Assembly: GCF_014652635.1 (NCBI RefSeq)
Contig: NZ_BMZE01000003.1
Coordinates: forward strand, 62,001 to 126,000
Direction: 5' to 3'
Source: Devosia pacifica
GTDB taxonomy: Bacteria > Pseudomonadota > Alphaproteobacteria > Rhizobiales > Devosiaceae
Length of the DNA stretch: 64,000 bases
Shown: piece by piece, positions 51,475-64,000 of the stretch
How the letters are laid out: the number at the start of each line of letters is the position of its first letter
Position numbering within the stretch: position 1 is the first letter of the stretch
Made by a program: the position numbers and the translations under genes
The notes under the pieces: generated by a model
What the model saw: only the letters and a program-made list of their open reading frames with translations
Told to the model about the DNA's origin: nothing
The model's database searches: none

Positions 51475-52727
51475 CAAGCAATCTCCTGTAAACGCGTGTC
51501 GAGGCGTTTCACCGCCTCCAGCAATACGGCGGCGCCCATCGCAATGTCTTCATTGGTCGCCGATTCGTCGGGCGTGTGGCTGCGTCCGCCGAGGCAAGGC
51601 ACAAAGATCATTGCCGCCCGCGTCAACCGCGCCATCCATGCCGTGTCATGTCCGGCACCGGACGCCATGCGGCGGTGGCGGGCTCCGACATGCTCGCTTG
51701 CCTCGTCAAGGATATCGAGCAATTCGGCATCACACGGCGTCGGCATATTGTCCGAGATAATCTTTGGTTCGGATGCCGTGACCCCGGCCTGCTCGGCAAT
51801 ACCCGCAACACCCGCTTCGAGCTCACCGAGAAAGCGAACCATGTCCTCGCGACGTTCGGCGCGCGCATCGATCAGCATGCGCACCCGCGCCGGCACAACG
51901 TTCGCAGCGTTCGGCTCCATCGAGAACTCGCCAACAGTCGCGGCAAAATGCGCGTCACCGCTTGCGAGCTCTGTCGCAAAACGCTCGACCGCCAGAACCA
52001 TCCAGCTGGCGGCAGTCAGTGCGTCCTGCCGTGCGCCCATTGGCGTTGTGCCGGCATGGTCGGCCCTGCCCTCAACGATGATTTCCACGCGGGTGATGCC
52101 AGCGATGGCGGTGACCACGCCGACATCGAATTGCTGGTTATCGAGAACGGGTCCCTGCTCGATATGCAGCTCGAGAAACGCTTTGATATCGCTGCGGTCT
52201 TCCGCACTCGCGGGATTGCCTCCGACCTGTTCGATGCCCTCCGCAAGCGTCAGCGAACCGGCCTCTCTTGTCAGCCACTCGTCGGGCCGCACACCCGCCA
52301 GCCCCCGGCTACCGACACATGAGACGCCAAATATCGAGACCTCCTCGGCAAGAAAGTCGACGATCTCAAGATCGTGCTCGAGCGTGATCCCCTGCTCGTC
52401 GAGCGCCCGCGCCACCTCAAGCCCGGCAATAACGCCGGCGATGCCGTCATAACGCCCACCGTCAGGCACCGTGTCGGAGTGCGAACCAAGCATGATCGTG
52501 CCGGAGCCGGGCTGGCGTCCGCGGCGGGTGCCGATCAGATTGCCGGCGGCATCAAGGCGGGTGCTCAGGCCCGCCGCCTCGAAACGCTGAGTGAGCCAGT
52601 TGCGACCCTCGAGAAACATCGGCGTGAAGGCACGTCTCGTGTAGGGGCGGCCAGGATCTGTAAGGCCGCTCAGGGCATCGATATCGGCGCCGATCCGCGT
52701 TGCGTCTGTGACGAGGTTGCGCGTCAT
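51474..52727 (-). CDS. M20-family N-carbamoyl amino acid amidohydrolase
   Basis: 417 residues of the hydantoinase/carbamoylase branch of M20. Metal ligands are visible: His83 and Asp94 (GSHSDTVPDGGRYDG), Glu128-Glu129 (LAEEVSIFG) and His188 (LHIEQGPVLD). It should hydrolyse an N-carbamoyl amino acid to the free amino acid, CO2 and ammonia; N-carbamoyl-L-glutamate is the predicted substrate here, giving glutamate. The ATG at 52727 overlaps the amidohydrolase stop as ATGA. A longer frame to 52829 is not supported. Confidence 0.85.
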   Translation of the reverse strand: MTRNLVTDATRIGADIDALSGLTDPGRPYTRRAFTPMFLEGRNWLTQRFEAAGLSTRLDAAGNLIGTRRGRQPGSGTIMLGSHSDTVPDGGRYDGIAGVIAGLEVARALDEQGITLEHDLEIVDFLAEEVSIFGVSCVGSRGLAGVRPDEWLTREAGSLTLAEGIEQVGGNPASAEDRSDIKAFLELHIEQGPVLDNQQFDVGVVTAIAGITRVEIIVEGRADHAGTTPMGARQDALTAASWMVLAVERFATELASGDAHFAATVGEFSMEPNAANVVPARVRMLIDARAERREDMVRFLGELEAGVAGIAEQAGVTASEPKIISDNMPTPCDAELLDILDEASEHVGARHRRMASGAGHDTAWMARLTRAAMIFVPCLGGRSHTPDESATNEDIAMGAAVLLEAVKRLDTRLQEIA

Positions 52728-54082
52728 ACGGCCTCCGGCCTGACGAATGTGCCATGCCCGGGCTCGGCCAGCACTGTCGTTCCGTCGAACACCAACTGCC
52801 CGTGCAGATAGGTTCCCGCCACCGTCCACGGCAGTTCAATGCCGTTATAGGGGCTCCAGCCGACGACGTTATTGCCGCTGGCCGCGGCATCATATGTACG
52901 CGGGCGATCCGCGAGGATCGTGATGTCAGCATCCTTGCCGATGTCGAGCGCCCCCTTGGTACCGGTAAGCCTGAAATGGCGTGCGGGATTGGCGGCCATC
53001 AGCCGCGCGGCCCAGGTGAGGGAAATGTCGCGCTCCAGCGCCCCCTTGACGAACAGTGGCACCATGGCTTCGAGACCCGGCACGCCGGAAGCATTTGCCA
53101 GCATGTCGGAGTTGGTCTTGCGGTCCTCGGACCAACTGACATGGTCAGTCGAAACCAACCAGACATTGCCGGCGCGGACGTGCTCCCAGAGCTTTTCAAC
53201 TTCTTCACGTGGTCGGATCGGTGGATTGATCTTTGCCTTGCCACCAAGCCGGGCCACATCGTTCTCCTCGTCCAGGGTTAGGTAGTGGATGCAGCATTCG
53301 GCGGTGGCGGCAAAACCTTCGTCGCGATAGCGCCGGGCGATGTCGTAGCCACGCCCCAGCGAGCAATGAACGACATGGGCCGGGCAGCTGGTCTCGGCGC
53401 CGATCTCGTAGATTTCCAGCATCGCCAGCGTCTCGGTCAGCGGGGGACGGCTCATCGCGTGAGCGCGATAGTCCGAAATGCCGCTGGCGCGGACTTCTTC
53501 CATCGCGGCGCGGACATATTCATCGACTTCATTATGGACGCCGGCGGTCAGCCCGGTCCGCGCGATTGCGGCAAAGCACTCCTCGAGGAGCTGCGGCGGG
53601 ATGCGCGGAAACCGCGTCGGATCGGTGCCGAACGTCGAAAACTTGAAGGCGGAAACGCCCGCCGCAACCATTTCGGGAATGCGCCGCGCCCCCTCTTCCG
53701 GATCGACTGTTCCGTAAAGCGCGAAATCGACACGGGCCTGCTCGCCGGCATGGGCGATCTTGCGCGCCACCGCCTCTGCCGAACACACGAGGTTGCCTTC
53801 GTCATAGGGCATATCGACAATTGTCGTGACGCCCCCGGCGGCGGCCGAGCGCGTGGACCAGATGAAGTCTTCCTGGTTCTTCTGGCTCAGAGAATGGACC
53901 TGAGCGTCGATCGCCCCTGGCAGTATCAGGGAGTTACCAAGCTCGTGCCGTTCTTTGGCCTGGGGGGCCTCGCCATCACCGACAGCCGCGATCTTGCCAT
54001 CGCTGACCGCGACATAGCCGTTCTCGATCACCTTGTCCGCCCGGACGACCGTCCCCTTCAGAACCAGATCAAAGTCAGACAT
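52724..54082 (-). CDS. Dihydropyrimidinase/hydantoinase-like amidohydrolase
   Basis: 452 residues of the cyclic amidohydrolase superfamily. The bridging carboxylated Lys147 (SAFKFST), His183 (GVHNE), His239 (VVHCS) and Asp313 (VSTDH) are present. The usual first metal pair HxH after the GAID turn reads Gln61-Val-His63, so one canonical His ligand is Gln. Predicted job: opening of 3-(2,5-dioxoimidazolidin-4-yl)propionate to N-carbamoylglutamate. ATGA overlap with the M20 gene. Dihydroorotase and allantoinase are relatives; the substrate rests on context. Confidence 0.82.
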   Translation of the reverse strand: MSDFDLVLKGTVVRADKVIENGYVAVSDGKIAAVGDGEAPQAKERHELGNSLILPGAIDAQVHSLSQKNQEDFIWSTRSAAAGGVTTIVDMPYDEGNLVCSAEAVARKIAHAGEQARVDFALYGTVDPEEGARRIPEMVAAGVSAFKFSTFGTDPTRFPRIPPQLLEECFAAIARTGLTAGVHNEVDEYVRAAMEEVRASGISDYRAHAMSRPPLTETLAMLEIYEIGAETSCPAHVVHCSLGRGYDIARRYRDEGFAATAECCIHYLTLDEENDVARLGGKAKINPPIRPREEVEKLWEHVRAGNVWLVSTDHVSWSEDRKTNSDMLANASGVPGLEAMVPLFVKGALERDISLTWAARLMAANPARHFRLTGTKGALDIGKDADITILADRPRTYDAAASGNNVVGWSPYNGIELPWTVAGTYLHGQLVFDGTTVLAEPGHGTFVRPEAV

Positions 54083-54112: not shown

Positions 54113-54865
54113 TCAGGCTGCAGCGCGCCGGCTCTGACCGGTCCGCCGTGCCAGAAAGCGCTCCAGCGCCGAAAGGGCGTCATAGATCAGCACCGCCAGC
54201 ACACCAACGATCAGCCCGCCTTGCAAGACAAACGATGTGTTGTTGGACAACAGGCCCGCGATGATCACCTCGCCCAGCGTACGGGCAGCAACGGTGGAAC
54301 CGATCGTTGCCGTGGCCAGCGAAATCACCGTCGACAGGCGCACCCCAGCGAGAATGACCGGAAAAGCCAGTGGCAGCTCGACGCGCAGCAGCCTCTGACG
54401 TCCCGTCATGCCCATGCCGCGCGCCGCCTCGGTTACGGCACCGGGCAGATTGGTCAGTCCTGTCAGCGTGTTCTCGAAAATAGGCAGAAGACCATAAAGG
54501 AACAGCGCGACGAGGGTGGGTGCAGTGCCAAAGCCAAGAATTGGCACTGCCAGCGCCAGTACCGCCACCGGGGGAAATGTCTGACCGATATTCGCGAGGC
54601 TGCGCGACAGCGGCAGGAACTCCGCTCCGAACGGCCGCGTCACGAGAATCGCTAGGCCCACTGCCAGCGCCGTCGCCGCCGCGACCGCAATCGCAACGAT
54701 CATCAAATGGTTGATGGTGATCTCCAGCAGGCTTCCCTGGTTGTAGATCACCGGCTGGTTGCCGGTGACGAGCGGCGCAAAGGCAAAGCGAAAGGTTTCG
54801 GGGCTGATCAGGAAAGCGATCAGCAGCGCCAGTACGATCAGCCGGATGACGAGCCCGATCTTCAT
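54113..54865 (-). CDS. Quaternary-amine ABC importer permease (OpuCB-like)
   Basis: 250 residues, about six membrane segments, with the inner-membrane permease EAA-type loop ARGMGMTGRQRLLRVELPLAFPVILAGVR. This belongs to the OpuC/Yeh osmolyte permease group. It overlaps the ATPase gene by ATGA. With the second permease, ATPase and binding protein it forms a complete importer, here probably for ergothioneine. Confidence 0.9.
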   Translation of the reverse strand: MKIGLVIRLIVLALLIAFLISPETFRFAFAPLVTGNQPVIYNQGSLLEITINHLMIVAIAVAAATALAVGLAILVTRPFGAEFLPLSRSLANIGQTFPPVAVLALAVPILGFGTAPTLVALFLYGLLPIFENTLTGLTNLPGAVTEAARGMGMTGRQRLLRVELPLAFPVILAGVRLSTVISLATATIGSTVAARTLGEVIIAGLLSNNTSFVLQGGLIVGVLAVLIYDALSALERFLARRTGQSRRAAA

Positions 54866-55794
54866 TGCGGCCGCGCGGCCTTACGCGCCAATTCCGCGCG
54901 GCTAATGCGCCCTATTGTCTTGCCATTATCAACCACCGGTAGCGCTTCGCGCCCGGACCACAGGCATTCGGCATAGGCTTCGCGTAGGCTCAACCGAGCC
55001 TCGATCGGTGTTCCTTCGGCTTCGCCCTGTTCGACATGGTCCGCCACCCTGTCAAGCGACAGCAGGCGGAACGGCCTGTCGCCACCAATGAGCTCGGCAA
55101 CGAAATCGGTGGCCGGATTGGCGATGATCTCCTCTGGCGTTGCGTATTGCAGCAATTGACCGGCATCCATCACGGCAATGCGCGTGCCCAGATGGATCGC
55201 TTCTTCCATGTCGTGCGTGACGAGCACGATCGTCGTCTTGAACTTGCGCTGAATTCCCAACAGATCATCCTGCGCCTTGGCGCGGATCACAGGATCGAGC
55301 GCGCCGAACGGCTCGTCCATCAACAGGATGTTCGGCTCTGCCGCGAGGGCCCGCGCAACGCCGACGCGCTGCTGCTGCCCGCCCGAGAGTTCGCTCGGCA
55401 GCCGATCGCGGAACTGGTCGGGGTCGAGCTGGAACAGGCGCATCAACTCATCGACGCGCTTGCGCGTGCGCTCCTTCTCCCAGTTCAGCAAGCCCGGCAC
55501 CGTGCCGATATTCTGCCCGACCGTGCGGTGCGGGAACAGGCCGTGCCCCTGGATGGCGTAGCCGATACGACGTCGCAACTCGAACGGCGCAACCTTGCGG
55601 GTGTCCTCGCCATCGATCAGTACCTGACCGGATGTCGGCTCGACGAGGCGGTTGATCATGCGCATCAGCGTCGTCTTGCCGGAGCCGGACGTACCGACGA
55701 TGACGCAGATTTCTCCGGCCTCGACCGTGAACGAGACGGCATCCACAACCGTCGTGTCGCCATAAGTCTTGGTGAGGTCCTTGAGTTCGATCAT
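54862..55794 (-). CDS. Quaternary-amine ABC importer ATPase with C-terminal CBS region
   Basis: 310 residues. Walker A GTSGSGKT (34-41), Q-loop, signature LSGGQQQR, Walker B ILLMDEP and switch His in VTHDMEEA are all intact. The last 70 residues form a CBS-type module (RLSLREAYAECLWSGREALPVVD), as in OpuA/OpuC ATPases, which respond to ionic strength. It overlaps both permease genes by ATGA. Confidence 0.92.
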   Translation of the reverse strand: MIELKDLTKTYGDTTVVDAVSFTVEAGEICVIVGTSGSGKTTLMRMINRLVEPTSGQVLIDGEDTRKVAPFELRRRIGYAIQGHGLFPHRTVGQNIGTVPGLLNWEKERTRKRVDELMRLFQLDPDQFRDRLPSELSGGQQQRVGVARALAAEPNILLMDEPFGALDPVIRAKAQDDLLGIQRKFKTTIVLVTHDMEEAIHLGTRIAVMDAGQLLQYATPEEIIANPATDFVAELIGGDRPFRLLSLDRVADHVEQGEAEGTPIEARLSLREAYAECLWSGREALPVVDNGKTIGRISRAELARKAARPQ

Positions 55795-57042: not shown

Positions 57043-57954
57043 CTAGTCGAGGAAACCGTTGCTGGTGAGGTATTCTTCGGCCACGGCGGAGGGCGACTCG
57101 CCGCCAACCTGAACGCGCCCGTTGAGCTCCTGCAAGGTCTCGAGCGTCAGCGATTCAAACACTGGCGCAAGCAGTTCCTCGATCTGCGGGTACTCTTCGA
57201 GCACTTCGGCGCGGATGATCGGCGCCGGCTGGTAGACCGGCTGAACGCCCTGGTCGTCCTCGAGAACTACGAGGCCGGAGGGCGCAATGCCGCCATCCGT
57301 GCCGTAGACCATTGCGGCATTGGCGCCGTTGGTCTGCTGTGCAGCCGCTGCGATGGTCGCCGCGGTATCGCCACCGGACAAGGTAATCAGCTGGTCGCCT
57401 TCAAGATCAAAGCCGTAGACTTCTTCGAACTTCGGCAGAGCCGCAGGCGAGTTTACGAACTCGGAGGACGCAGCGAGCACAACTTCGCCGCCATTGGCGA
57501 CATACTCACCGAAATCGGTGAAGGTCGCGAGCCCTTCGCTTTCGGCGAGGTCCTGACGAATGGCGACAGCCCAGGTGTTGTTAGCCGGCGAAGGCTGCAG
57601 CCAGACAATGTTATTGGCTTCCATGTCGAGTTCGGCTGCCTGCTCGTAGGCGGATTCGGCATTGTTCCAGATCGGATCGTCTGCCATCTCGAAGAAGAAC
57701 GCGGCGTTGCCGGTATACTCGGGGTAGATGTCGATTTCGCCAGCAGTGATCGCCTCGCGCACGATCGGCGTGCCGCCGAGCTGTGTGCGGTCTTCGACCG
57801 GGATATCGTTTGCCTCGAGCACGTCGAGGATCATGTTGCCCAGAACGCCACCTTCGGTGTCGATCTTTGAGGACACCACGACCTGCGCGTTGGCGGCGGT
57901 CACGGTAAAGGCAAGAGCGGCTGTGGCGCTCAGAAGCTTGGTGGAAAGGGGCAT
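57043..57954 (-). CDS. Quaternary-amine substrate-binding protein (OsmF/ProX-like)
   Basis: 303 residues with a signal peptide cut after AANA (residue 23). The mature protein is of the glycine-betaine/choline binding cluster (KIDTEGGVLGNMILDVLE, GEIDIYPEYTGNAAFFF, VVLEDDQGVQPVYQPAPIIR). Ligands of this family are quaternary amines, and the related EgtU protein binds ergothioneine, a trimethylated histidine. In this operon ergothioneine is the best guess. It follows the lyase gene on the same strand with a 79-base gap. Confidence 0.9.
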   Translation of the reverse strand: MPLSTKLLSATAALAFTVTAANAQVVVSSKIDTEGGVLGNMILDVLEANDIPVEDRTQLGGTPIVREAITAGEIDIYPEYTGNAAFFFEMADDPIWNNAESAYEQAAELDMEANNIVWLQPSPANNTWAVAIRQDLAESEGLATFTDFGEYVANGGEVVLAASSEFVNSPAALPKFEEVYGFDLEGDQLITLSGGDTAATIAAAAQQTNGANAAMVYGTDGGIAPSGLVVLEDDQGVQPVYQPAPIIRAEVLEEYPQIEELLAPVFESLTLETLQELNGRVQVGGESPSAVAEEYLTSNGFLD

Positions 57955-58033: not shown

Positions 58034-59578
58034 CTAGGCCACGGGGCCAAGTGCGAAAAACTCGTCCAGATCCATAATGGCCGAGTGCTCGATCAGTTCT
58101 CCCATGAACTGTTCCGAGCCGAGTTCCACTTCGATCGCCTCGACCTCGGACGAGAGGGGCCGATCGAACGTGTAGTAGGCGGCGTGACGGCGCACCAGCC
58201 GATAGACCATTCCTGGAACGTTGCCGGGCCTGTCCTCGGAAATGTCCATCGCCTGCGCGGCCAACAGACCCTCGAGAGCCGCCATGCGGCGCAGTGCCAG
58301 CACTTGGCGCTCGAACCGTTCGACAACGAGCGGCAAAAAGGCGGCCTCATCCTCGAGCCCGTTCGCCACGACCAGCGATTGCGCCGAGATGGCGTTCGAG
58401 AGCGACAGCACCCGCGTAAACAGCTCGCCAGCGAGCTTGATGATCGGCCCGAAACCAGTGGCGATGGCGCCCGGCGCCACGAGGTTCACCGGAAGGTTGC
58501 GGCGGCCACCATTGCCGAGCAGTACGCAGCGATTGAAGGAGTTACGCGCCACGTGCGCGAGACCCAGCTGCGCTGTCTGCAAGAATACCGTCACGTCCAG
58601 CGGCAGAGATCCGCCTGACGTCAGCACCTGCCCGGCAGCGACGACCGGGTTGTCATCGGTGCGGCCTGTGGCGGCCAAAACGGTCCGCCCCGCTACGGTG
58701 AGACTTTCGAAGGCTGTGGCGAAGACCTGGCTCATCATGCGGATCGAGAGTGGATCCTGCACGTGGGTGCCCATCGGCCAGTCCCAGCCCATCGCATTGA
58801 AATAGAGCCACGCGCCGACAGCCGCCTCGCGCTCGGTACCGACATGCGCCACCGCTTTCCACGGATCGCGCGACGCCCCCAGTGCCCCGGCAGTCGTCAA
58901 TCCGGTCGCAAGCAAGAGGCGAACAGTCGATGCCGCCTGGCGTATCGCCCGCGATGCCGCTGCGTAACCGACGGCGTTGGTCGAGATCGAAGCCAGGCTG
59001 TCGCGCGGGGCGAGCTTCATAGGCTCGAGCCCTGCGCGCCTGAGCGCCTCGTTCGCCGGAAGCCGCTCACCGCGATAGACGGCTTCCCCGACGCCAGTCA
59101 GAACCGCGCCGATCTGGCCCATGAGCCCGATATCCGCGCAGCCGATCGAGCCGGTGCGCCGCACCACCGGAACGACGTCGTTTTCCAGCAGCTTGACGAA
59201 GATCTCGACGAGCTTCGGGGTGCACCCCACTCGCCCCGTCAACGCCATGTTGACGCGTATGGCCATCGCGTTGCGGATGACTTCCGGGGAGAAAGGGCTG
59301 CCGGTACCAAAATGGTGGGCACGAACCAGCCCGGTATTATAGTCGTCGAAGTCCTCCTGCGACCAGGAGACATCCTTCATCGCTCCGACACCAGTGGTGG
59401 CACCGTAGACCGGTCGGCCCGACACGATAGCATCTTCGATCACGTCGCGCGCCTGAGCCACGCGATCGAGCGCTGCAATATCCGGTTCGACGAGGACGCG
59501 CTGCGTTCCGATGCGTGCCATGTCCGCAAAGCTGAGCGGCTTTCCCTCGAGCACGAGGCGGGGCGCAACTGCATCCAT
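58034..59578 (-). CDS. HAL-fold ammonia-lyase-family enzyme without MIO, probable ergothionase
   Basis: 514 residues of the histidine/phenylalanine ammonia-lyase superfamily: GATTGVGAM near 58-66, FDDYNTGLVRAHH, QDPLSIRMMSQVFATAF and TDDNPVVAAG. In HAL and PAL the Ala-Ser-Gly tripeptide in GSVGASGD cyclises to the MIO electrophile; here residues 144-150 read GSIGCAD, so the MIO site (147-149) is Cys-Ala-Asp and no MIO can form. Ergothionase, which eliminates trimethylamine from ergothioneine by acid/base catalysis, is a known HAL-fold enzyme of this kind. As the first gene of the operon it would start the pathway. Histidine as substrate is unlikely. Confidence 0.8.
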   Translation of the reverse strand: MDAVAPRLVLEGKPLSFADMARIGTQRVLVEPDIAALDRVAQARDVIEDAIVSGRPVYGATTGVGAMKDVSWSQEDFDDYNTGLVRAHHFGTGSPFSPEVIRNAMAIRVNMALTGRVGCTPKLVEIFVKLLENDVVPVVRRTGSIGCADIGLMGQIGAVLTGVGEAVYRGERLPANEALRRAGLEPMKLAPRDSLASISTNAVGYAAASRAIRQAASTVRLLLATGLTTAGALGASRDPWKAVAHVGTEREAAVGAWLYFNAMGWDWPMGTHVQDPLSIRMMSQVFATAFESLTVAGRTVLAATGRTDDNPVVAAGQVLTSGGSLPLDVTVFLQTAQLGLAHVARNSFNRCVLLGNGGRRNLPVNLVAPGAIATGFGPIIKLAGELFTRVLSLSNAISAQSLVVANGLEDEAAFLPLVVERFERQVLALRRMAALEGLLAAQAMDISEDRPGNVPGMVYRLVRRHAAYYTFDRPLSSEVEAIEVELGSEQFMGELIEHSAIMDLDEFFALGPVA

Positions 59579-59674: not shown

Positions 59675-60016
59675 CTATTCGAGCCAGAACATCGGACGCA
59701 GCGCGGTATCAACAGGCTCGTTGCGCTCATTGGTGGCCATGATGTCCGCCATATGCGCCCACCATCGCTGCATGATTTCGGTCTCCGGGAGGCTTGCCAT
59801 GGTGTGGTTCCTGCGGCGCCAGAGGACGCCGAACAGGATGTTCGTCTCCTCATCAAGGTGAATGGAGTAATCCTTCACCCCCGCATCTTTCAGCAGCGTC
59901 ACCAGTTCAGGAAAGATCTCGTCGTGGCGGCGTTTGTATTCCTCTGCCATTCCGGGATGCAGATGCATCTTGAATGCGTGTTTTTCCCATCCGTCTTTCT
60001 CGATCACGTCAGTCAT
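59675..60016 (-). CDS. rhaU: L-rhamnose mutarotase
   Basis: 113 residues with family motifs [38 protein letters not shown] and [12 protein letters not shown]. It interconverts alpha and beta anomers of L-rhamnose in the cytoplasm. The ATG at 60016 touches the Shine-Dalgarno GGGAGG directly; a GTG at 60007, giving a better spacing, may be the true start. It lies 19 bases after the repressor gene, so the two are one unit. The R. leguminosarum name is used; rhaM is the enterobacterial one. Confidence 0.93.
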
Positions 60017-60035
60017 CCTCCCTTTCGTCGCCCGC

Positions 60036-60839
60036 TTAAGCCGTCCTGGCGCTTTGGTCCTGAATATCAGCGTCGGCGACAATCAGCCTGACGCCGCGCC
60101 CCGCCACCATCTCGCGTTCTTCCTCGGTAATGCCGCGATCGGTAATCAGCGTCGAGACGCGATCCAGCCCGCACAGGATCAGGCTCGAGCGATTGCGCAG
60201 CTTGCTGGAATCCGCAAGGCAGATAAGCTCATCCGCCTGATCGATCAGTTTCAACTCTGCCTGGATGAGCATCGGATCCGTCTCCATCAGCCCGAGAGGC
60301 CCGACCCCCTGGCAGCTGATGAACATGCGGCTGGCATAAAAGGATTTCGACGTATCATTGTCGAACGGCGACAAGATGATGTTCTGCTCGCGATAGATCG
60401 TGCCGCCCGGGACCATCACTGCGGAGCGGGAATGGGCAAGCAGATGCGCCGCGATCGGAAATGAGTTCGTGAAGACATGGGCCCGGCGATGCGACATGTG
60501 GTGCACCATCTGAAAGGTGGTCGTACCGCCGTTGATGATGATCGAGTCGCCATCGGCAATCATATCGGCGGCAGCGCGGGCAATGGCGCGCTTGGCGCCG
60601 GCATGCATCGTCTCATTGACCTTGTAGGGCCGTCCTGCCAGCGCGGATTGCGGCAGCGGGGTCACCGATTCAGCCCCGCCGCGCACGCGCCGCAGCTTTC
60701 CGGCAACATGCATTGAAGCGATATCGCGCCTGATGGTGGCTTCGGACGCGCCTGTCATCTCGACGAGATCGGCGACGGTCGCAACCGGGCGTGACTGGAC
60801 TGCGGCAGCGATAATGCGATGGCGCTCAGTTTCGTGCAC
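60036..60839 (-). CDS. rhaR: DeoR-family repressor of rhamnose genes
   Basis: 267 residues. An N-terminal winged helix ([35 protein letters not shown]) is followed by the sugar-phosphate sensor domain with GGTTTFQM and ADSSK motifs. DeoR-type RhaR controls rha genes in Rhizobium leguminosarum. GTG at 60839, preceded by GGAGG, is preferred to the more distal frame at 60860. It reads away from rhaDI, with an inverted-repeat operator in the shared gap. Effector is probably rhamnulose or its phosphate, by analogy. Confidence 0.88.
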
Positions 60840-60892
60840 TTGTCCTCCAATCACGATCAAACGTGCGCGTTGCTCGACTTATAGCAATCATA

Positions 60893-60922
60893 TTCGATCA
60901 CCAAAACGCATCAATGATCGAA
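60893..60922. promoter_or_regulatory. Inverted-repeat operator TTCGATCA-N14-TGATCGAA between rhaR and rhaDI
   Basis: A perfect 8-base inverted repeat (60893-60900 and 60915-60922) with a 14-base centre, located in the divergent gap and directly upstream of the rhaD promoter-like TTGACA. Likely the RhaR binding site; binding not shown. Confidence 0.6.
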
Positions 60923-60937
60923 ACTGACCGCTTCTGA

Positions 60938-60966
60938 TTGACAGCTTGTCAGAAATCGGGTCCTAG
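60938..60966 (+). promoter_or_regulatory. Possible promoter for rhaDI
   Basis: A consensus -35 TTGACA at 60938-60943, then a 17-base spacer and a weak TCCTAG at 60961-60966. It lies 30 bases before the ATG at 60997 and just after the inverted repeat, where a repressor could block it. Confidence 0.45.
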
Positions 60967-60996
60967 TGCCAAGCAAATCCGCACATCCGGGAGGAC

Positions 60997-63099
60997 ATGA
61001 TGACCGACACCGCGCAATCGCGCCTCGCTAACCTTTGGGACGACGCGAAGACTGCCGGGATGACCGAAGCCGAGCGCCTCGTTTATCGCTCCAACCTGCT
61101 CGGATCAGACAAGCGGGTCACCAATTACGGTGGTGGCAACACCTCATCCAAGATCACCGAAAAGGATCCGCTGACCGGCGCGGATGTCGAAGTGCTGTGG
61201 GTGAAGGGGTCGGGCGGCGACGTCGGCACCATCAAGCTCGAGGGCTTCTCGACCCTCTACATGGACAAGCTTCGCGCTCTCAAGGACATTTATCGCGGCG
61301 TCGAGTACGAAGACGAGATGGTGGGCTACTTGCCCCACGCAACGTTCAATCTGAATCCACGCGCGGCGTCCATCGACACGCCCCTGCACGCCTATGTGCC
61401 GCGCGCCTATGTTGACCACATGCATCCCGACGCCATCATCGCGATCGCTGCATCGAAAGACTCCAAGGCACTGACCCAGGAGATCTTTGGCAACGATATC
61501 GGATGGCTGCCGTGGAAGCGCCCTGGCTTCGAGCTTGGCCTGTGGCTCGAGACTTTCTGCAAGGAAAATCCTGATGCCAAAGGTGTCATCCTTGAAAGCC
61601 ACGGCCTGTTTACCTGGGGCGACACGCCGAAAGAGTGCTACGAAACCACCATCGCCACGATCAACAAGGCGATCGGCTGGCTCGAAGAAAAGACTGCGGG
61701 CAAGTCAATTTTCGGCGGTGCAGCAACCAGTTCTCTCGCTGCTGAAAAGCGGCGTGAAATCGCTGCGCGCCTGATGCCGCGCATTCGCGGCATGATTTCC
61801 GGCGAGAGCCACAAGGTCGGTCACTTCGAAGACACCGATGCGGTACTCGAGTTCGTCAATTCCAACGACCTGAAGCCGCTGGCGGCTCTAGGCACCTCCT
61901 GCCCCGACCACTTCCTGAGAACCAAGATTCGTCCGCTGGTGATCGATTTCGATCCGGCCAACCCGGATGTCGATAGTGTCATCGATGCGCTCGGAAAGCA
62001 GGTGGAGGATTATCGCGCCGACTACGCCGGCTACTATGAGCGGTGCAAGCACGACAATTCGCCGGCGATACGCGATCCGAATGCTGTCGTTTACCTGATG
62101 CCGGGCGTCGGCATGTTCACCTTCGCCAAGGACAAGGGGACGGCGCGCATTTCCGGCGAGTTCTATATCAACGCCATCAACGTGATGCGCGGCGCCTCGA
62201 CGGTGTCGACCTACCAAGGCCTGTCCGAACAGGAAGCCTTCGATATCGAATACTGGCTGCTCGAAGAAGCCAAGCTGTCGCGCATGCCGAAGCCGAAGTC
62301 ACTGGCCGGACGGGTTGCGCTTGTTACTGGCGGTGCCGGTGGCATCGGCCGCGCAACTGCGATCCGGCTCCTACGCGAAGGGGCCTGCGTGGTTCTGGCT
62401 GACATCGATCAGGCGGCACTCGATAGCGCCAGCGACGAACTCGCTCAGGGCTTCGGCAAGGACGTCGTGCGCACCGCCAACATCAACGTCACCTCTGAAG
62501 AGCAGGTGATCAGCGGATTTGCGCATGCGGTCGCCGAATATGGCGGGCTCGACATCCTCGTCTCCAATGCCGGCCTCGCCTCGTCGGCACCGATCGAGGA
62601 AACCTCGCTCGCGCTTTGGAACAAGAACATGGACATTCTCTCGACGGGGTACTTCCTCGTCAGCCGGGAAGCGTTCAAACTGTTCCGCAGCCAGAAGATC
62701 GGTGGCAATGTGGTCTTCGTCGCCTCGAAGAATGGCCTCGCCGCCTCGCCAAACGCTTCCGCCTATTGCACCGCCAAAGCGGCCGAAATCCATCTCGCGC
62801 GCTGCCTGGCGCTTGAGGGCGCCGGCGAGCAGATCCGCGTCAACGTCGTCAATCCGGATGCCGTGCTACGCGGTTCGAAGATCTGGACGGGCGAGTGGAA
62901 GGAGCAGCGCGCCGCCGCCTACAAGATGTCGACCGACGATCTCGAGGAGCACTATCGCCAGCGTTCTATGCTCAAGCGCAGCGTGTTCCCGGAAGACATC
63001 GCGGAGGCAATCTACTTCTTTGCCAGCGAAGCGTCTGCCAAATCCACCGGCAACATCATCAATGTCGATGCCGGCAATGCGCAGTCCTTCACGCGCTGA
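60997..63099 (+). CDS. rhaD: Bifunctional rhamnulose-1-phosphate aldolase / lactaldehyde dehydrogenase
   Basis: 700 residues. The N-terminal class II aldolase part (about 1-425) has metal-binding His residues in VDHMHPDA and a later ESHGLFTWGD. The C-terminal SDR (about 430-695) has the NAD motif VALVTGGAGGIGRA, catalytic YCTAKAAE and a substrate-loop. It cleaves rhamnulose-1-phosphate to DHAP and lactaldehyde and oxidises the latter. The start follows GGGAGGAC, with a second ATG one codon later. First gene of rhaDI. Confidence 0.95.
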   Translation: MMTDTAQSRLANLWDDAKTAGMTEAERLVYRSNLLGSDKRVTNYGGGNTSSKITEKDPLTGADVEVLWVKGSGGDVGTIKLEGFSTLYMDKLRALKDIYRGVEYEDEMVGYLPHATFNLNPRAASIDTPLHAYVPRAYVDHMHPDAIIAIAASKDSKALTQEIFGNDIGWLPWKRPGFELGLWLETFCKENPDAKGVILESHGLFTWGDTPKECYETTIATINKAIGWLEEKTAGKSIFGGAATSSLAAEKRREIAARLMPRIRGMISGESHKVGHFEDTDAVLEFVNSNDLKPLAALGTSCPDHFLRTKIRPLVIDFDPANPDVDSVIDALGKQVEDYRADYAGYYERCKHDNSPAIRDPNAVVYLMPGVGMFTFAKDKGTARISGEFYINAINVMRGASTVSTYQGLSEQEAFDIEYWLLEEAKLSRMPKPKSLAGRVALVTGGAGGIGRATAIRLLREGACVVLADIDQAALDSASDELAQGFGKDVVRTANINVTSEEQVISGFAHAVAEYGGLDILVSNAGLASSAPIEETSLALWNKNMDILSTGYFLVSREAFKLFRSQKIGGNVVFVASKNGLAASPNASAYCTAKAAEIHLARCLALEGAGEQIRVNVVNPDAVLRGSKIWTGEWKEQRAAAYKMSTDDLEEHYRQRSMLKRSVFPEDIAEAIYFFASEASAKSTGNIINVDAGNAQSFTR

Positions 63100-63106
63100 T
63101 CACTAA

Positions 63107-63126
63107 GGGGCGGGTCAGCCCGCCCC
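63107..63126 (+). other. Intercistronic hairpin between rhaD and rhaI
   Basis: A perfect 8-base-pair stem (63107-63114 with 63119-63126, GGGGCGGG and its complement) with a TCAG tetraloop. It is followed by GAAAAA rather than T, so it is not a full terminator; a stabilising or processing element is likely. Located in the 67-base gap before rhaI. Confidence 0.6.
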
Positions 63127-63166
63127 GAAAAACAGAACACCGAACAATCGTCGATGGGAGTGAGGA

Positions 63167-64000
63167 ATGAGCGAAACGATGATCGATCCCTCGGTGATCG
63201 AACAGGATAACGCCGCACGAGAAGCCAATCTGCGCCAGGACTATGACAGCCTCGGCGAACGGCTCGACCGGCAGGGTATCGCTATCGATACCATCAAGGA
63301 CAAAGTCGCGCGCTTCGGTGTTGCCATCCCGTCATGGGGCGTTGGCACCGGCGGAACGCGGTTTGCGCGTTTCCCCGGCACGGGCGAGCCGCGCGACATC
63401 TTCGACAAGCTCGAAGACTGCGCAGTCATCCACCAGATGACCCGCTCGACGCCGACCGTCTCACTGCATATTCCGTGGGACAAGGCAGATCCGAACCGGC
63501 TGAAGGACACCGCCAACCGCCTGGGCCTCGGGTTCGATGCGATGAACTCCAACACCTTCTCGGATGCCAAAGGCCAGGCGAACAGCTACAAGTTCGGCTC
63601 TCTCAGCCACACCGATGCGGCGACGCGCCAGCAGGCGATTGAACACAATCTCGAATGTATCGAGATCGGTCAGGCTATCGGCTCGAAGGCGCTGACCGTG
63701 TGGGTCGGCGATGGGTCGAACTTCCCGGGTCAGGCACATTTCACCCGCCAGTTCGAGCGCTACCTCGACTCCATGAAGTCCGTCTACCAGGGCCTGCCGA
63801 ATGACTGGCGCCTGTTTACCGAGCACAAGATTTTTGAGCCGGCCTTCTATTCGACTGTGGTCCAGGATTGGGGCACCAACTACCTGATCGCCAAGGAGCT
63901 CGGCGATCGCGCCTACTGCCTTGTCGATCTCGGGCACCACGCTCCGAACGTCAACATTGAGATGATCGTCGCCCGCCTGATCCAGTTCGGCAAGCTCGGC
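63167..64000 (+). CDS. rhaI: L-rhamnose isomerase, rhizobial type, C-terminus cut by window edge
   Basis: 278 codons are visible from the ATG at 63167, preceded by GTGAGGA. The sequence has DTIKDKVARFGVAIPSWGVGTGGTRFARFP near the start and FTEHKIFEPAFYSTVVQDWGTNY, the Stutzeri/Rhizobium-type isomerase (RhaI) metal-binding region. It turns L-rhamnose into L-rhamnulose in the cytoplasm. It runs off the right edge; the remaining C-terminal part is missing. Confidence 0.93.
   Translation, partial: MSETMIDPSVIEQDNAAREANLRQDYDSLGERLDRQGIAIDTIKDKVARFGVAIPSWGVGTGGTRFARFPGTGEPRDIFDKLEDCAVIHQMTRSTPTVSLHIPWDKADPNRLKDTANRLGLGFDAMNSNTFSDAKGQANSYKFGSLSHTDAATRQQAIEHNLECIEIGQAIGSKALTVWVGDGSNFPGQAHFTRQFERYLDSMKSVYQGLPNDWRLFTEHKIFEPAFYSTVVQDWGTNYLIAKELGDRAYCLVDLGHHAPNVNIEMIVARLIQFGKLG

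Follow-up and report, generated by a model that had tools for sequence, protein, structure and literature searches.

A stretch of 64,000 nucleotides of Devosia pacifica DNA (contig NZ_BMZE01000003.1; hereafter, the window) encodes a protein of the histidine ammonia-lyase (HAL) family from which the tripeptide that forms MIO is missing. The question raised by this locus is whether such a protein can still be a histidine ammonia-lyase or whether, as an earlier note on this DNA had proposed, it acts on a betaine such as ergothioneine. From comparison of sequences and gene neighbourhoods, we predict that the product is an ergothionase (ergothioneine trimethylamine-lyase), and we put the probability of this reading at roughly 0.92. 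The gene and its loop are located as follows.

58034..59578, minus strand: ertA-type gene, predicted ergothionase (ergothioneine trimethylamine-lyase) with an MIO-less HAL fold; 514-aa ORF, PF00221, best match among solved sequences 6s7j, diagnostic residues
59126..59152, minus strand: contracted MIO loop GSIGCADIG, aa 143-151, from alignments (phmmer, MAFFT)
59132-59140, minus strand: Cys-Ala-Asp, aa 147-149, within GSIGCADIG of the ertA-type ORF

In P. putida HAL, MIO is formed by Ala142-Ser143-Gly144 (HAL residues are given in P. putida numbering). The earlier note had placed GSIGCADIG, with Cys-Ala-Asp at 147-149, at the right residues and coordinates, and the HAL-like fold that it assumed is borne out by PF00221 (280.5 bits vs. 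a cut-off of 27.3) and by an AlphaFold model that matches both HALs and ergothionase. Its description of Cys-Ala-Asp as a replacement of Ala-Ser-Gly holds in part: the triad is absent, as it is in 6s7j, and the loop contains no Ser, but the exchange is not one-for-one. In the phmmer alignment and in two MAFFT alignments, GSIG-C-A-D-I is set against HAL GSVG-A-S-G-D-L with a one-residue gap; Asp149 aligns with P. putida HAL Asp145, the conserved Asp directly after the triad, and two residues, Cys-Ala, stand where HAL has three. Judged from these alignments, the change is a shortening of the loop without Ser rather than a clean tripeptide swap. The contraction is not due to chance: it is found in 28/28 ErtA-type genes among the 397 genomes of the order and in 60/60 aligned ErtA-type rows (a set that includes six partial second copies of member genes); it also occurs in the Treponema denticola ergothionase 6s7j. 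The weight that had been put on the Cys is misplaced, since residue 147 varies among relatives (41 Cys, 14 Thr and 5 Ala in the 60 ErtA-type rows; Glu in 6s7j), which makes a catalytic role for Cys147 unlikely. Among 30 other HAL-family rows, GSVGASGD is present in 24 and absent from six, two of which have the same one-residue contraction, while four miss three residues; the 24 canonical rows were chosen by GSVGASGD, so the presence of Ser in 24/24 is by construction.

The remainder of the active site points in the same direction as the loop. Twelve of the 13 compared positions are identical to 6s7j (Y58, H88, S199, N201, L277, R280, D308, S321, H342, G377, K381 and E409), position 324 being the one that differs; presumably, some of these shared residues are essential for ergothionase. 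At fourteen positions, 6s7j agrees with 62/62 rows (the window protein and 61 ErtA-type rows, counting duplicates), and the residue seen most often in the 24 canonical rows is a different one; Ser199, Asn201, Leu277, Asp308, Ser321, His342, Gly377 and Lys381 are eight of these. Ser199, Leu277 and His342 correspond to HAL Asn195, Tyr280 and Glu347, respectively, whereas Tyr58, His88, Arg280 and Glu409 are common to ErtA rows, 6s7j and canonical HAL rows. Across the 28 ErtA-type genes, taken one per genome, these residue positions are kept in 28/28, except for position 199 (27/28; Arg in G558). In the 30 other HAL-family rows, Ser199, Asp308, Ser321, Ser324 and Gly377 occur in 0/30, Leu277 in six, His342 and Lys381 in two each, and Asn201 in one. 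None of Leu277, His342 and Lys381 suffices singly to tell the ErtA rows and 6s7j apart from the 30 others, but a Gly-x-[Ala/Gly]-Asp-Ile loop without Ser, taken together with Ser199, Leu277, His342 and Lys381, does. For these comparisons, rows counted as ErtA-type if their identity to the window protein exceeded 34% (the least similar of those retained has 34.6%, and the 30 others reach at most 26.3%), and 17 matches with fewer than 380 aligned residues, as well as 10 identical copies, were left out.

In relation to the T. denticola ergothionase (PDB 6s7j, 6s7q), the window protein thus shares the HAL fold, the one-residue contraction and the lack of Ser, but it has Cys-Ala where the T. denticola loop has Glu-Gly, Ser at position 324 where that enzyme has Phe, and Glu at 411 where it has His; Ser324 (HAL Phe329) is therefore a feature of ErtA enzymes that is not common to 6s7j. 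In relation to P. putida HutH (1b8f/1gkj), the overall fold together with Tyr53, His83, Arg283 and Glu414 is common to both proteins, whereas Ala-Ser-Gly is missing, Asn195, Tyr280 and Phe329 are replaced, the curated HutH cut-offs are not reached, and no MIO is expected in the window enzyme. PMC11432326 assigns Tyr52 and Glu414 of a Geobacillus HAL a crucial part in catalysis and names Asn194, Gln274 and Arg280 for positioning.

Two further types of HAL-like sequence appeared in the alignments. The two other rows with a one-residue contraction (L184 in genome G653 and L076 in G253) also have the equivalents of Leu277, His342 and Lys381, with Asn or Val at 199 and Arg for His88. A group of four (L072, L073, L074 and L177) lacks the MIO triad through a three-residue loss (GSAGY---LTHNAHT or GSVGY---LSHMAHI), keeps HAL Asn195, carries Leu and Ala at the positions of Tyr280 and Phe329, respectively, and scores below the HutH cut-off (about 471 vs. 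539 bits in the two tested).

Similarity scores favour ergothionase over HAL, although not at every level. The best match among solved sequences is 6s7j (178.3 bits, 2.5e-51), followed by P. putida HAL (141.4 bits; phmmer), and the HutH models score far below their cut-offs (219.3 vs. 524 and 201.8 vs. 539.15 bits). In the NCBIfam model search, no ergothionase model was matched by the window lyase. Overall identity to 6s7j is about 25%, no higher than to HAL (24.7 and 24.9%). The AlphaFold model, built from the window protein and 21 close relatives, has a mean pLDDT of 78 and a pTM of 0.86, with parts of the active-site loops at pLDDT < 50. Foldseek gives it TM-scores of 0.82-0.84 (query) and 0.85-0.87 (target) against 6s7j, compared with 0.80-0.81 and 0.81-0.83 against P. 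putida HAL entries, whereas by E-value a P. putida HAL entry comes first (5.8e-23 vs. 1.3e-22 for 6s7j); in VIA-align, the Z-score of 6s7j (34.6) is tied with those of HALs (up to 35.2). Thus, the modelled fold alone would not decide between ergothionase and HAL.

The relationship between these enzymes was examined in a tree of 64 rows (33 ErtA-type rows, including the window protein, 6s7j and 30 others), for which rows from 35 close-kin loci were thinned to 11 and partial copies were left out; the columns of the loop stayed in. One branch (100/100) has the 33 ErtA rows on one side, and another (99/94) divides the ErtA rows together with 6s7j from all 30 others. This topology favours one origin of the ErtA enzymes and 6s7j, with the qualification that 6s7j is a long branch and that columns of the loop were among those used; L181, L184 and L076 are long branches as well, and the order near all four is unsure. 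It could be argued instead that loss of MIO and trimethylamine-lyase activity arose separately in the alphaproteobacterial ErtA enzymes and in the T. denticola ergothionase, their active sites having converged on the HAL fold through an identical one-residue shortening and identical residue exchanges. We consider such a double origin improbable.

The ertA gene heads an operon-like run on one strand, with short gaps or overlaps, in which a transporter is followed by ErtD, ErtE, ErtC and ErtB (the labels ErtA, ErtB and ErtC were assigned in this analysis by analogy; ErtD and ErtE are taken from NCBIfam).

57043..57954, minus strand: OsmF-type (glycine betaine class) ABC substrate-binding protein; NF049931, 482.7 vs. 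400 bits
55791..57107, minus strand: ABC transporter permease, start codon uncertain; ORF, with betaine/choline permease models below cut-off
54862..55794, minus strand: ABC transporter ATPase, ProV-like; TIGR01186, 312.1 bits, below the cut-off of 326.6
54113..54865, minus strand: second ABC transporter permease; PF00528, 70.6 vs. 26.4 bits, with NCBIfam permease models below cut-off
52724..54082, minus strand: ErtD, hydantoin-5-propionate amidohydrolase; NF058538, 787.5 vs. 600 bits
51474..52829, minus strand: ErtE, N-carbamyl-L-glutamate amidohydrolase, start uncertain (ORF overlaps ertD); NF058540, 593.6 vs. 520 bits
50389..51477, minus strand: ErtC, thiohydantoin desulfurase; NF058529, 593.8 vs. 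440 bits
48722..50386, minus strand: ErtB, thiourocanate hydratase; NF058530, 1041.6 vs. 930 bits

All four proteins of the NCBIfam ergothioneine-utilisation set (NF058530, NF058529, NF058538 and NF058540) are therefore found over cut-off beside the lyase; the locus differs from that set in that no model is reached by the lyase itself and in that an OsmF-type ABC transporter lies between the lyase and ertD. For ErtE, the generic Zn-dependent hydrolase model NF009531 scores above NF058540 (648.6 vs. a cut-off of 486). ErtB also exceeds the cut-off of the hutU model TIGR01228 (710.2 vs. 375 bits) and could thus be labelled urocanate hydratase by automatic annotation. A Rhizobium plasmid carries an ErtA homologue of 56% identity that is annotated as an aromatic amino acid ammonia-lyase, in a cluster whose further annotations are amidohydrolase, Zn-dependent hydrolase, DUF917 and urocanate hydratase.

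The genome as a whole (4.0 Mb, 99.98% complete) contains one PF00221 match and one urocanase match. The genome search found no second HAL-family protein, no EgtD match and no HutI over cut-off (nine weak matches, the best at 46.4 vs. 298.15 bits). The genome thus seems to be without an ordinary histidine route and without the EgtD step of ergothioneine synthesis. Given the lack of an EgtD match, uptake from outside is the most likely source of ergothioneine, probably by way of the ABC transporter, and the OsmF-type protein is possibly the component that binds it. EgtU is described as the ergothioneine ABC importer of Streptococcus pneumoniae (PMC9732360), and EgtUC entries are among the PDB matches of the OsmF-type protein; both belong to the same broad quaternary-amine-binding class, but the likeness is weak (about 95-102 bits vs. 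450 for glycine-betaine-annotated relatives). Together with the closeness to 6s7j, the ert operon and the lack of HutI and of a second HAL-family protein argue for the substrate that had been proposed earlier, a betaine such as ergothioneine rather than histidine.

Within this context, a mechanism can be outlined. Ergothionase is stated to lack MIO and to yield trimethylamine and thiourocanic acid (PMC13405746). The leaving group of ergothioneine is already a quaternary ammonium, so the MIO electrophile would not be needed and acid/base catalysis would suffice. A general base, probably Tyr58, would take the C-beta proton, Lys381 and Glu409 would probably help in substrate binding and activation, and trimethylamine would depart, leaving thiourocanate. 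As far as family names can be trusted, ErtB would then hydrate thiourocanate, ErtC would take off the sulfur, ErtD would open the hydantoin and ErtE would yield glutamate; family names and general chemistry suggest trimethylamine, sulfide, CO2 and ammonia as by-products.

How strongly the ergothionase reading is preferred depends on what can be said for its rivals. An MIO-less trimethylamine-lyase might have a relative of ergothioneine as its main substrate (S-methyl-ergothioneine, ergothioneine sulfonic acid or hercynine). In NCBIfam, ErtB and ErtC each have an S-methyl variant; the reference list of PMC13405746 includes a catabolic pathway for ergothioneine sulfonate, cited for Agrobacterium radiobacter; and one ErtA-type gene, that of G501, occurs in a genome without an over-cut-off ErtB. 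However, the window proteins stay below the S-methyl models (NF058531, 754.6 vs. 880 bits for ErtB; NF058532, 288.7 vs. 450 bits for ErtC), on which ground the S-methyl-ergothioneine route was rejected, and exceed the ergothioneine versions; by name, moreover, ErtB and ErtC act on thiourocanate and a thiohydantoin. We therefore regard a related main substrate as very unlikely.

Neither of the two remaining rivals is really tenable. If the protein were a histidine ammonia-lyase and ErtB acted as the urocanate hydratase of a Hut-like route, this would agree with the HAL fold and with the hutU score of ErtB. Against this reading stand the HutH scores, a loop without Ser, the replacement of HAL Asn195, Tyr280 and Phe329 and the lack of an over-cut-off HutI in the genome, and it was rejected on these grounds. 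It also sits poorly with the score of ErtB against the thiourocanate model, which at 1041.6 bits compares with at most 720.3 for full-length below-cut-off matches in the order survey (two truncated or broken ErtB genes below cut-off reached 847.7 and 765.3). Formation of MIO from Gly146-Cys147-Ala148, with Cys in place of Ser143, is equally improbable. Shifting the gap one residue earlier would set Cys147 on Ser143, and P. putida HAL reportedly stays active when this Ser is mutated to Cys; nonetheless, residue 147 is Thr or Ala in 19/60 related rows in which the other diagnostic residues are kept, it is Glu in 6s7j, and ergothionase is described as MIO-free (PMC13405746). In view of the variation among close relatives, Cys147 was rejected as a catalytic or MIO-forming residue.

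If the ertA-type gene encodes an ergothionase, a link with genes for thiourocanate processing might be expected in other genomes, and such a link was found: 26/28 ErtA-type genomes of the order have an over-cut-off ErtB. A profile search of the order yielded ErtA in 28 genomes at 352-1040 bits, the next match scoring 153, and ErtB was over cut-off in 29/397 genomes of the order sample and in 6/398 of the phylum sample (both counts include the window's genome). Of 397 order genomes, 26 have both an ErtA-type gene and an over-cut-off ErtB, two have ErtA only (G558 and G501), three have ErtB only and 366 have neither (Fisher p 3e-35, uncorrected for relatedness). The ErtA and ErtB surveys were taken to cover the same 397 genomes, partly on the basis of the equal number; the best few candidates per genome, usually three, were scored, and G501, G558, G719 and G707 were searched again with every candidate scored. 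The broken or truncated genes of G719 and G707 were treated as absent.

The exceptions are of several kinds. With all candidates scored (seven in G501), neither G501 nor G558 has an over-cut-off ErtB. The 14.4-kb ertA contig of G558 also carries a betaine transporter; in G501, a one-contig genome, none of the window's ert genes lies beside the divergent ErtA-type gene (L223; 352 bits), which is near genes for a LysR regulator, a DUF2264 protein and a beta-galactosidase. The ErtB-only genomes (L084 in G289, L112 in G580 and L114 in G653) have an ErtC homologue of 67-78% identity and no ErtA-type lyase. In the first two, the transporter beside ErtC/ErtB is of the amino-acid type (best models, all below cut-off: lysine/arginine/ornithine binding protein and cystine permease), which would fit the entry of a compound without a quaternary amine; the route at all three loci is possibly fed by thiourocanate or another non-betaine thioimidazole. 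In G711, ertA with transporter genes lies about 95 kb from ertB-E on one contig (L225 and L127), and the cluster can thus be split. G719 appears to have a broken ert set, given that ErtB is split there into two neighbouring pieces and that a short fragment is all that matches ErtA (contigs C20 and C22).

Among close kin, the arrangement is largely conserved. Thirty-five loci were fetched by patterns from the window protein and are hence close relatives (31/35 titled Devosia); within the stretch examined, an OsmF-type substrate-binding protein was found in 32/35, ErtC in 29/35 and ErtB in 26/35. Where ErtB or ErtC is missing, the contig ends, the one exception being the Devosia locus L010, in which ertA and the transporter are present with no ertB-E in roughly the following 5 kb. 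The substrate-binding protein is genuinely missing from L007 and L014, whereas the miss in L035 is a contig end. A BCCT betaine transporter was considered for L007 and L014 and rejected, as the nearby large ORF has no Pfam match in the former and is a family-5 solute-binding protein in the latter. In L011, L028 and L036, the cluster lacks ertD.

Ergothionase and the ert genes are already known, and what is new here is one more member, in a Devosia-type genome; a literature search, with most subscription papers outside its reach, found no paper that mentions both Devosia and ergothioneine, and one that mentions ergothioneine along with thiourocanate. The re-annotation is nonetheless useful, as the window protein would easily be mistaken for an ammonia-lyase of histidine or aromatic amino acids. 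According to PMC13405746, the search made there did not cover ergothionases that are divergent or poorly annotated, and the loop-plus-residue test described above helps to map ergothioneine consumers that release trimethylamine. Just upstream of ertA, at 59675-64000, the window carries L-rhamnose catabolism genes (mutarotase, DeoR-type regulator, RhaD aldolase/dehydrogenase and isomerase), some of which are also found no more than 10 kb from ertA in a number of the Devosia loci.
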